A stretch of DNA of 64,000 nucleotides from NCBI RefSeq assembly GCF_900177045.1, contig NZ_LT841358.1, positions 1,265,396-1,329,395 on the forward strand, read 5' to 3'. The notes under the pieces are model-generated. The model ran no database searches, was not told the DNA's origin, and saw only the letters and a program-made list of their open reading frames with translations. This DNA is from Candidatus Nitrosotalea okcheonensis. Lineage in GTDB: Archaea; Thermoproteota; Nitrososphaeria; Nitrososphaerales; Nitrosopumilaceae. Of this stretch, positions 4,840 through 8,903 are shown one piece after another. The translations under genes and the position numbers were made by a program. The stretch's first letter is position 1. Each line of letters begins with the position of its first letter.

Positions 4840-5265
4840 TCAAACCTTTGATTTACACAAACTACAGTATCCGTAAAAGTCAAAATTTCCCCGTAATATT
4901 CTGTATCTTGATCTCGTTGCTACTCTGCTTTGAATCTCTTTTATTGACGCATCATCTAGATCTTCGATTTTTCCACAGTTAAGACATATCAAGTTGATAT
5001 GCTCTCCAGTATTTGCATCAAACCTAGATTCTCCTTTTACTTCTATTTCATTAACAAGTTTATTGCTCCTCATTAGATCAAGAGTTTTATAAACAGTAGA
5101 AAGACTTACCATCGGGTATTTCTTTTGGACAAATTTGTGTATTTGTTCAGCACTGGGATGTTCTTCACTTTTCATAACGTAGTCAACTATGGCAATTCTT
5201 TGAGGGGTAATTCTGAATCCTTCTTTTCTTAATGATAATACAACTTGATCCAGTTTGTATTGCAT
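4840..5265 (-). CDS. Fur/PerR-family metal-dependent repressor
   Basis: Ferric-uptake-regulator family repressor. The N-terminal winged helix (residues 1-80) includes GFRITPQRIAIVDYV and the recognition segment VSLSTVYKTLDLM. The C-terminal dimerisation domain has two CxxC pairs (Cys94/Cys97 and Cys134/Cys137) forming the structural zinc site, plus FDANTGEHINL (His89) at the regulatory metal site. The frame also opens at an ATG six codons earlier (5283). The ATG at 5265 is preferred because a TATA-like TTTAAATA lies about 26 nt upstream of it. Divergent from dps across two palindromes, so autoregulation and control of dps in response to peroxide or metal are likely (inference). PerR and Fur function cannot be told apart by eye. 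Confidence 0.9.
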   Translation of the reverse strand: MQYKLDQVVLSLRKEGFRITPQRIAIVDYVMKSEEHPSAEQIHKFVQKKYPMVSLSTVYKTLDLMRSNKLVNEIEVKGESRFDANTGEHINLICLNCGKIEDLDDASIKEIQSRVATRSRYRILRGNFDFYGYCSLCKSKV

Positions 5266-5296
5266 AGTTCTTTTATGTTGCATAATATATTTAATA

Positions 5297-5326: not shown

Positions 5327-5345
5327 AATAGGAATTGTTCCTATT
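5327..5345. promoter_or_regulatory. Second palindrome over the dps promoter
   Basis: Perfect inverted repeat with 8-bp arms (AATAGGAA / TTCCTATT) and a 3-nt centre. It overlaps the TATA-like TTAAATA and the presumed transcription start of dps. Its sequence differs from the 5297-5321 dyad, so it may bind a different regulator. Confidence 0.5.
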
Positions 5346-5352
5346 AATGTGT

Positions 5353-5829
5353 ATGAAAACAAATATTGGAATCTCTGAACAGAACCAAAAAGCAGTATCA
5401 GGGATCCTAAGTAAGTTACTTGCTGATGAATACGTCTTGTATACGAAGACAAGAAACTACCATTGGAATGTAATAGGACCACACTTCAATGATCTTCACA
5501 AGTTCTTTGAAGGACAGTACGAGTCTCTTGATGCAAGTATAGATGAGATTGCAGAAAGAATCAGATCTCTTGGTTCCAAGGTTCCGTCTACCCTTGGTGA
5601 GTTTGTCAAAACCTCTAGACTTGCAGAACATCCAGAAAAATACCCAGATGCTCAAACGATGGTACAAAACCTACTTGCTGACCATGAAAAAGTAATCCAG
5701 TACCTAAGAGAGGACGTGGGTGCATGTGATGAAAAATACCATGATGCTGGAACTCAAGACTTTCTCACTGGTTTAATGGAAGAACATGAAAAGACTGCTT
5801 GGATGCTTCGATCCGTTTTGGAGAAATAA
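5353..5829 (+). CDS. dps: Dps-family ferritin-like DNA protection protein
   Basis: Dodecameric mini-ferritin that oxidises and stores iron, using peroxide, and protects DNA. The 158 residues are typical for the family. The ferroxidase signature lies at residues 37-69: HWNV, then the DLH histidine, and DEIAER, with His37, His49, Asp64 and Glu68 as the expected ligands. The frame also contains TTG 5335 and ATG 5347, but ATG 5353 lies 26 nt after the TATA-like element. Regulation by the adjacent divergent Fur-family repressor is the obvious inference. Confidence 0.93.
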   Translation: MKTNIGISEQNQKAVSGILSKLLADEYVLYTKTRNYHWNVIGPHFNDLHKFFEGQYESLDASIDEIAERIRSLGSKVPSTLGEFVKTSRLAEHPEKYPDAQTMVQNLLADHEKVIQYLREDVGACDEKYHDAGTQDFLTGLMEEHEKTAWMLRSVLEK

Positions 5830-7232: not shown

Positions 7233-7990
7233 TTAGGCTCCTCCAAGTGAGACTATAAGATCAGTAACAAAGCCAGCACATAGCCCAACAAAAATGCCAA
7301 TCATGATAACATTATTGGTAGTTTGTTTTCTTCCAGCATATACATCAACATTGAGACATAAATTAGTGCACCGCCTGCAATTGATAAGAACAGTATGTAT
7401 GCAACATTTGAAAATACCAAGCTTCCCAAGATAGTTCCAACAAATATTGGTCATCCGCCAACAAGACCTGCAAGTATCAAAAAGCGAGCAGTAGGTCTTT
7501 TCAAGACTCCAGTAAGCGGACCTGCTATTCCAAATCCCTCTGTTGTATTATGAGCTCCAATTCCTACTGCAATCATCATTGCAAGCCTGTATGCACTAAT
7601 TTCATGAAATGACTGACGAAGATGATCATCTCCCTGTTTTATGCTTTCTAGAGACAGTACCTGTGGAACTCTTTTTGTCATCGCTCTATGCTCATACAAT
7701 ACAAGCCCAAGCAACCCAATTGCAATTCCTCCAAATAGTGCAACAAGATCTATTACTGCATCCCCAAGTGATGCCTTTCCTGCAGATGCGTCAGTTGCAG
7801 CACTAGTTGCAGACTCCCATGTATGACTAAATACATCTATGATGAGAAATACCAAAATTCCTAATGCAAACGCGTTAAGAAATCCTTTTGCCCTGGTGGA
7901 TAAATTCTTCATTACTACAAGCGGCAGACCCAAGAAAATAGTAAAACCAGCTATTGCGCCAAGTAACAAAAGTTGAGTATAGTCAATCAT
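7233..7990 (-). pseudogene. ZIP-family metal transporter, broken by TGA and a frameshift
   Basis: ZIP permease for divalent metals. The first 180 codons run in one frame from ATG 7990, with several membrane segments and the ZIP motif HNTTEG in TM4. A TGA at 7451-7453 then interrupts a Gly-Gly-Pro turn. Beyond it the same frame still encodes membrane protein sequence (PIFVGTILGSLVFSNVAYIL...), until about 7350-7365, where coding potential moves to another frame. That frame encodes the last helix (NNVIMIGIFVGLCAGFVTD) and ends at TAA 7233. Two separate lesions therefore split the gene. ATG 7990 overlaps the stop of the pentapeptide gene (ATGA). Decay is the simplest reading; consensus error is the alternative. 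Confidence 0.82.
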
Positions 7991-8727
7991 GTGGTATCCT
8001 TGTCCACTATCCGACAGACAGGATTTCCATGACATGACATATCAGCTCCAGAATAATCAAGTCCTCCTACGTTTGTACCAGTAAGGTCAGCATCTTCAAA
8101 ACTGCCACCGGTTATGTCAGAATTTGCCAAGTTTGCACTACCAAGGTTTGCGCTTGTAAACACAGCATTTCTCATGTCCACATTTGTGAGTATGACATTT
8201 TGCAAATCAGCGTTATACAAATTTGCACCAATAATATTGGTATGAGATAGATCAAGAGCTACCAATCTGGCATTACTAAAATCTACACCCGGAAATCTGG
8301 CACCAATAGTGTTTGCCCCACTCAAGTCTGCCCCCGATAGATTTGTATGATAAAAGTCAGCATATCTCAAATCGGCACCTCTAAGGTCTGCACCAGACAA
8401 ATTGGAATAGGCAAAACTGCCTCCAGACAAGACAGCGTTTTGCAGATTTGCGCCTGAAAGATTTACATTATAAAATAATGCATTCTTGGCAACAGTCTTT
8501 GAGAGGTTTGCTCCAGTCATATCGGCAAAATGAATCTCGGTGTGAGCCATTTTGCAATTGCTCAAGTTTATTTTCGGAGTTGGTACCGCAAAGCAACTGT
8601 TTGATTTTATAGTAGAATGGTGTGTTGGGACATTTCTAAAATCTTGTGCAAAAACATTTGTTGTAGAAACAGAAGTTATTGCAATTACACTTACAAACAA
8701 GAGTAACATAGTTTTCATTGTCTTCAT
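7987..8727 (-). CDS. Secreted pentapeptide-repeat protein
   Basis: A 246-residue protein with a signal peptide (hydrophobic about 8-24, AxA-like end near residue 27) followed from about residue 50 by some 30 A(D/N)LxX-type pentapeptides such as ADLRG and ANLQN. These fold as a right-handed quadrilateral beta-helix. The C-terminus has a Cys pair (CHGNPVC) that could form a disulfide. First gene of the operon with the ZIP transporter and multicopper oxidase. A TATA-like TTAAATA lies about 26 nt upstream, with a DtxR-like box between it and the start, so expression is probably metal-controlled. Biochemical role unknown; a surface scaffold or metal-handling role is inference. Confidence 0.88.
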   Translation of the reverse strand: MKTMKTMLLLFVSVIAITSVSTTNVFAQDFRNVPTHHSTIKSNSCFAVPTPKINLSNCKMAHTEIHFADMTGANLSKTVAKNALFYNVNLSGANLQNAVLSGGSFAYSNLSGADLRGADLRYADFYHTNLSGADLSGANTIGARFPGVDFSNARLVALDLSHTNIIGANLYNADLQNVILTNVDMRNAVFTSANLGSANLANSDITGGSFEDADLTGTNVGGLDYSGADMSCHGNPVCRIVDKDTT

Positions 8728-8741
8728 TAGGCAAGCCTAAT
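8726..8741. promoter_or_regulatory. DtxR/MntR-like operator of the pentapeptide-ZIP-MCO operon
   Basis: ATTAGGC-AA-GCCTAAT, an inverted repeat with perfect 7-bp arms and a 2-nt centre. It matches the known form of DtxR/IdeR/MntR-class boxes (TTAGGnnnnCCTAA). It sits between the TATA-like element (about 8750-8757) and the ATG at 8727, overlapping the expected transcription start, a position typical of a repressor site. The regulator itself is not in the window. Confidence 0.65.
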
Positions 8742-8903
8742 TGTGACATGTATTTAATTTGCTCAATTGACACAATTGTTGAAAACACATTCTAATTCCA
8801 ACAACATGGAATAATATCATAAAATGAAATGAAAATAATTTTTTGGAATATGAAAATGTAATCTGGACAGAATTTAATTCATATAATGCTGCTACTATAA
8901 CTC

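Follow-up and report, generated by a model that had tools for sequence, protein, structure and literature searches.

The window analysed here is a stretch of 64,000 bases (C1:1265396-1329395) in the 1,972,585-base, single-contig genome of Candidatus Nitrosotalea okcheonensis, and on its minus strand it carries a gene for a secreted pentapeptide-repeat protein, a ZIP transporter pseudogene and a gene for a two-domain multicopper oxidase (Table 1). A first-pass annotation had described a pentapeptide-ZIP-multicopper oxidase operon under a metal-responsive box; all three genes are there, but the ZIP is no longer intact and the oxidase lies beyond the segment which that annotation covered. Read on the minus strand, the promoter runs from an upstream palindrome (TTCCATGTTGTTGGAA) through a TATA-like element (TTAAATAC) and the box to the ATG of the pentapeptide gene, the A of which is at 8727, and the box does lie between the TATA-like element and the first gene's start, as had been claimed. 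Its core is a 14-mer (TTAGGCAAGCCTAA, 8727-8740), and a TTAGG-N4-CCTAA palindrome at a promoter is the form of a DtxR-family operator. The box would be expected to overlap the start of a leaderless transcript, the position of which we infer. The TATA-like element keeps its position in related pentapeptide promoters, 11 of the 12 that were listed have the box directly against the start codon, and the aligned pentapeptide proteins (n = 11) share four invariant cysteines.

Table 1. Coordinates of features at the operon and of the four exact boxes in the genome
Feature	Position	Strand	Remarks
Two-domain multicopper oxidase, ceruloplasmin type, 401 aa	6041..7246	-	copper ligands and four iron-site residues conserved
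ZIP transporter pseudogene	7233..7990	-	30-residue deletion, in-frame TGA 7451-7453, frameshift near C-terminus
Secreted pentapeptide-repeat protein, 246 aa	7987..8727	-	Pfam PF00805, E=1e-40; signal peptide by eye
Palindromic box ATTAGGCAAGCCTAAT (16-mer)	8726..8741	.	putative DtxR-type operator, overlaps first gene's ATG
TATA-like element	8750..8757	-	TTAAATAC; plus strand reads GTATTTAA; sequence reading
Second palindrome, TTCCA-N6-TGGAA (TTCYA-N6-TRGAA class)	8796..8811	.	upstream of TATA
Exact site 1	window 8726-8741		pentapeptide-(ZIP)-oxidase operon
Exact site 2	L002		second pentapeptide gene, then broken ZIP
Exact site 3	L001		between ArsR-like gene and intact divergent ZIP
Exact site 4	L004		23 bases before another intact ZIP

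The deletion in the window ZIP takes out the first HNxxEG motif, and no intact frame with both HNxxEG motifs was found there. The ZIP copy at L002 is broken too (L002:315-780), the paralogues at L001 and L004 are intact, and three relatives (L079, L083, L095) have the pentapeptide and oxidase genes with no ZIP between them. Because the window and L002 copies are broken and the ZIP is gone from these relatives, the conserved core of the operon is the pentapeptide and oxidase genes; metal import by the operon itself, as first proposed, is not supported, with a ZIP that is a pseudogene here and missing altogether in close relatives, and import would instead fall to the boxed ZIPs that are intact, those at L001 and L004. 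Where the oxidase gene is not directly behind a pentapeptide box it has a box of its own (L267, L268, L271, and L270 with one mismatch), and at L272 none was found within the sequence stretch examined.

Both ZIP copies downstream of pentapeptide genes have decayed under a conserved promoter, and the two other boxed ZIPs have stayed intact. Beside the operon a Fur-family gene (4840-5283, minus strand, PF01475) is divergent from a ferritin-like gene (5335-5829, PF00210); these neighbours fit an iron neighbourhood and prove nothing. A CbtA-like gene (predicted cobalt transporter; L002:1821-2540) lies about 300 bases beyond the second pentapeptide promoter, and at L063:3527-4802, as in L085, the ZIP gene gives several overlapping matches that look like a partial duplication.

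A ceruloplasmin-type oxidase

The closest solved relatives of the oxidase are ceruloplasmins, with 819-833 bits over three repeats, compared with about 68 bits for two-domain laccases, and it aligns with each of the three human ceruloplasmin repeats at 271-285 bits. The T1 and T2/T3 copper ligands are conserved, and E300, H305, E336 and D387 align with human E935, H940, E272 and D1025, iron-site residues which we take to act in iron oxidation. E272, E935 and D1025 of ceruloplasmin are described as an acidic cavity triad near the T1 copper (PMC6900326). The oxidase has two domains, and the six-domain ceruloplasmin architecture was not found in it. What had been called a copper enzyme can be refined to the ceruloplasmin (ferroxidase) type, and we regard it as a putative ceruloplasmin-type ferroxidase.

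Within the phylum, close relatives (E<=1e-30) are limited to 11 of 398 genomes and 3 of 163 genera, so that conservation across ammonia-oxidising genera, by which MCO1 is recognised, was not found for this oxidase. In Herbold et al. (PMC5767755), MCO1 is given as absent from four Nitrosotalea species, and a pentapeptide protein of Nitrosotalea is listed as expressed. Because of that absence and the few close counterparts in the genera searched, the window oxidase is probably an enzyme other than MCO1.

Genomic distribution of the box

The first-pass annotation had assigned the box to the DtxR class and had named, among its checks, a genome scan, a look at orthologous promoters and a search for DtxR-family genes; neither of the two findings that it would have taken as refutation was made, since the genome has DtxR-family genes and the box recurs at orthologous promoters. 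The scan returned only four exact TTAGG-N4-CCTAA sites, every one at a ZIP or pentapeptide promoter; at L001 two divergent promoters each have their own TATA and their own box, the second box being TTAGCTGGTCCTAA. A looser pattern (TTAGSNNNNSCTAA) gave six sites, five at ZIP or pentapeptide loci and the sixth inside a 409-aa open-reading frame. Total box counts were dropped as evidence: in this genome (four exact sites against seven) and in most of its genus the reversed pattern is at least as frequent, and in the window one site with at most one mismatch compares with 1.74 expected by shuffling, a count that is not enriched; the box is judged non-random because of its position, not its number.

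We fetched 58 loci, those encoding relatives of the intact ZIP, and at 38 of them an exact box was met again at the orthologous promoters, in a zone from -200 to +12 around the start of a ZIP or pentapeptide gene. A stricter zone retains 36 loci and 37 of 41 boxes, leaving out L022 and L061 through an offset start. Among 56 stretches upstream of ZIP genes, 35 have an exact box; 200 mononucleotide shuffles gave 0.005 on average and 1 at most. These stretches come from related loci, so that the events are not independent. The 20 box-less loci include L041, L044 and L046 of Nitrosopumilus/Nitrosarchaeum type, loci labelled Bathyarchaeota, and others, with partial or degenerate sites at L037, L043, L060 and L066. 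Within the genus we took 19 box loci, one per genome, from the 33 other same-genus genomes with a site, and in 18 of these (exception, L082) the box is at ArsR-like, ZIP, pentapeptide or oxidase genes.

Allowing one mismatch gave 27 sites in the 1.97 Mb genome, most of those examined lying inside open-reading frames; as extra regulon members they were set aside apart from the site at suf, which was kept because it recurs in relatives. One further genome (G082) has 30 exact boxes, mostly identical (TTAGGCTGGCCTAA), across 3.2 Mb, probably a dispersed repeat and not a regulon.

Boxes at iron genes in other archaeal families

Elsewhere among the archaea the box is found at FTR1-DtxR loci of other families (L155, L157), DtxR-FeoB loci (L156, L159), FeoB (L167), ArsR-like-DtxR operons behind twin boxes (L152-L154) and suf genes (L260, L261), the genomes with a box at FTR1, FeoB, suf or DtxR genes being G039, G055, G050, G051, G043, G110 and G117. 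DtxR genes of the type of L006, a protein of the present genome described below, lie inside boxed operons with FTR1 in G039 and G055 and beside an FTR1-like frame in G051, and together with an ArsR-like gene behind twin boxes in G043, G110 and G117; other DtxR genes stand behind boxes with FeoB in G039 and G050, and the FeoB of G055 has twin boxes (FeoB of G050 and the FTR1-like frame of G051 were identified by eye). In order-level genomes we looked at 26 places with a box: DtxR, FTR1, FeoB or suf genes account for 11, and the other 15 adjoin no recognisable iron gene, 8 falling within open-reading frames. Several regions had been picked for a nearby DtxR gene, so that these figures do not give an unbiased rate. 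Of 29 loci inspected upstream of sufB, 20 have a box with at most one mismatch and 15 the second palindrome (13 have both, 7 have neither); going by the genome-wide site density, hardly any such box would be expected. Boxes at FTR1, FeoB, DtxR and suf genes point to iron, and the DtxR-class assignment is strengthened by those at the FTR1, FeoB and DtxR genes of other families.

In the present genome both palindromes lie close together upstream of sufBD (L166:1542-1580, G000:C1:24041-24079), with near-constant spacing in many relatives. In family f2, exact boxes stand 4-5 bases before genes of unknown function (L162:1825-3000, L164:1202-1962, with L077; 385 aa and 240-247 aa). A box near an MntR-like gene (G053:C39) was set aside as lying inside an open-reading frame.

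DtxR-family proteins of the genome

The search for DtxR-family genes gave two that exceed the Pfam cut-off, besides one weak match. L006, a 146-aa protein (G000:C1:1643279-1643716), matches PF01325 with 58.3 bits (cut-off 26) and PF02742 with 67.9 bits (cut-off 27), and its PDB relatives are SloR, ScaR, MntR and DtxR, the matches spanning residues 16-140 only. Aligned with MntR it has M for D and C for E and keeps EH, and we take M and C at the metal-selective positions to be those of the Fe-type DtxR ligand set (M10, C102, E105, H106). Neither the ancillary site-1 ligands (H79, H98 in DtxR numbering) nor an SH3-like third domain was found in L006, which ends at 146 aa, and it scores 57 bits against 290 for the NCBIfam actinobacterial DtxR equivalog. 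By sequence, L006 is a member of the DtxR family and not IdeR itself. The one metal sensor first proposed would likely be this Fe-ligand DtxR-like protein, and not the MntR-like L005.

Other observations speak against this assignment. No exact box stands at the L006 gene in this genome. In 13 same-family genomes the L006-type and ArsR-like genes are both there and no exact box was found, so the presence of a repressor does not predict the box; an L006-type match is absent from 11 of 37 same-genus genomes, 8 of which are still boxed, including G003 (99% completeness). Co-occurrence of the box with the L006-type or ArsR-like gene was set aside as an indecisive test, the proteins occurring in box-less genomes and L006 being absent from boxed incomplete MAGs.

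A putative iron regulon

The best reading of the locus is an iron-type DtxR operator with an unusual regulon. We put at roughly two in three the probability that the box is the operator of an iron-type DtxR-family repressor, most likely L006, of a regulon with an Fe(II) oxidation-uptake module. Metal-bound repressor would occupy the start site, shortly after the TATA, and prevent transcription, and would come off the box as iron falls, the direction of control being presumed. The regulon would comprise the pentapeptide-(ZIP)-oxidase operon, the second pentapeptide gene, the two intact ZIPs, the ArsR-like gene and probably sufBD. Together the ceruloplasmin-type oxidase, if active as a ferroxidase, and the intact ZIPs encoded elsewhere may form the Fe(II) oxidation and uptake module, with the pentapeptide protein as its exported partner, and the palindrome upstream of the TATA would be the probable site of the ArsR-like winged-helix protein.

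This second palindrome occurs in 10 of 12 pentapeptide promoters and in 30 of 56 ZIP upstream stretches (200 mononucleotide shuffles: mean 0.085, maximum 1). The genome has 35 TTCYA-N6-TRGAA sites against 19 for the reversed control, most of them in open-reading frames, and four intergenic ones fall in boxed promoters, suf included; of five genus g31 loci, one (L293) has it ahead of the oxidase gene. As a rule the ArsR-like winged-helix gene runs divergently from the ZIP, and in one family it shares an operon with a DtxR gene. Its product has a predicted winged-helix fold (pLDDT 87.6), nearest to NolR and archaeal ArsR-like regulators, and no conserved Cys or His among 33 distinct sequences (Cys in 4, His in 8). 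Because of this fold, the lack of conserved Cys and His, and the persistence of the second palindrome upstream of the ArsR-like gene in the box-less L044 (L046 has only a degenerate form), the ArsR-like protein probably reads the second palindrome. NolR-like proteins read TTAG-containing sites, which keeps the reverse pairing in play, with the ArsR-like protein on the TTAGG box and the DtxR proteins acting elsewhere. We consider this unlikely: the ArsR-like gene abuts the box in most ZIP loci and stands with DtxR behind the twin boxes of L152-L154, its predicted fold agrees, and three same-genus genomes without exact boxes (G012, G015, G024) also lack a full-length orthologue, but boxes at DtxR, FTR1 and FeoB genes occur in G055 and G050 without an ArsR-like match, the protein is present in 13 genomes without an exact box, L044 has the other palindrome, and the ArsR-like protein lacks conserved metal ligands. 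In G020 (L094:1638-3008) a 456-aa protein without Pfam match replaces the ZIP, divergent from a boxed ArsR-like gene.

That the module serves copper, its oxidase and ZIP cooperating in copper uptake as for other ammonia-oxidising archaea, seems improbable to us. The ZIP and multicopper oxidase pairs of these archaea are discussed as copper uptake or hydroxylamine oxidation in PMC7785015 and PMC5767755. In Nitrososphaera viennensis under copper limitation, MCO1 rises by log2 0.81 and two ZIP-type permease genes by 1.33 and 1.39, a moderate rise for which the authors propose copper uptake (PMC7785015). Against this, the window oxidase is not close to the enzymes of other ammonia oxidisers, as its few close relatives indicate (11/398 genomes, 3/163 genera), it is ceruloplasmin-like with iron-site residues, and in other families the box goes with iron genes. 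A lack of copper may also raise iron genes indirectly, via a disabled copper-dependent ferroxidase; if the oxidase is such an enzyme, copper shortage would starve the cell for iron, so the viennensis data do not decide. In the literature searched we found no report of iron control of MCO/ZIP pairs, the papers there proposing copper uptake, and none of such a regulon in the lineage; an earlier prediction may exist, Leyn and Rodionov reportedly having studied archaeal DtxR regulons.

Returning to the iron-type operator, a fuller scenario can be drawn, although we hold it as less likely than not: in acid-soil ammonia-oxidising archaea one iron-type DtxR repressor and an ArsR-like partner, on two separate palindromes, would control an exported iron module. 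Its two-domain ceruloplasmin would oxidise Fe(II) on the outer side of the membrane, the pentapeptide protein, capped by cysteines, would hold or present the Fe(III), and uptake would fall to the ZIP paralogues; the response of such genes to copper in the lineage would then be secondary iron starvation. Control of the box by the MntR-like L005, with a regulon answering to manganese, is in our view quite improbable. L005 is encoded in the genome, passes the NCBIfam MntR cut-off (138.3 against 138 bits) and keeps the Mn ligands (MEDYLE and DVEGIEHH), and ZIP proteins can carry Mn, but the boxed DtxR genes of relatives are L006-type or other, save for one in-ORF site in L160, box-associated genes elsewhere are iron genes (FTR1, FeoB, suf), and the recognition helix of L005 is unlike that of the L006 type. 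A chance palindrome would suit a genome total under its reversed control, but is scarcely credible for a box that recurs in ZIP upstream stretches far beyond the shuffle maximum of 1 and abuts the ATG in all but one of the pentapeptide promoters.

Iron acquisition and sensing in ammonia-oxidising archaea are poorly known. With a ceruloplasmin-type oxidase and a conserved, putatively iron-type operator that pentapeptide, oxidase, ZIP and suf genes have in common, an iron role becomes directly testable, and genes often assigned to copper uptake may instead serve iron. The presence in an archaeal operon of one two-domain unit resembling ceruloplasmin also bears on the origin of six-domain ferroxidases.

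Comparison with known systems

The likeness to the DtxR/IdeR iron regulon lies in the TTAGG...CCTAA arms (the IdeR box is TTAGGTTAGGCTAACCTAA), the placement over the promoter, and the iron transporters and autoregulated repressors of relatives. In contrast, the box here is a single 14-bp unit or tandem pairs and not the 19-bp overlapping form of IdeR, L006 has no third (SH3-like) domain, a secreted pentapeptide protein and a ceruloplasmin-like oxidase belong to the regulon, and a second, separate palindrome lies upstream. With the MCO1-ZIP pair of ammonia-oxidising archaea the operon shares adjacent MCO and ZIP genes and the same archaeal lineage (PMC5767755, PMC7785015), but the former paper gives MCO1 as absent from the four Nitrosotalea species, and the oxidase has no close counterpart in most genera searched. 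Vertebrate ceruloplasmin and hephaestin resemble the oxidase at about 280 bits per ceruloplasmin repeat, with copper ligands and iron-site residues kept, whereas the archaeal enzyme, a ferroxidase only putatively, has two domains, not six, and is exported and encoded in an operon with a pentapeptide protein. As in yeast Fet3p-Ftr1, a copper oxidase would hand iron to a permease, which here would be a ZIP and not FTR1, the ZIP of the operon being dead and intact ZIPs with the same box lying elsewhere in the genome.
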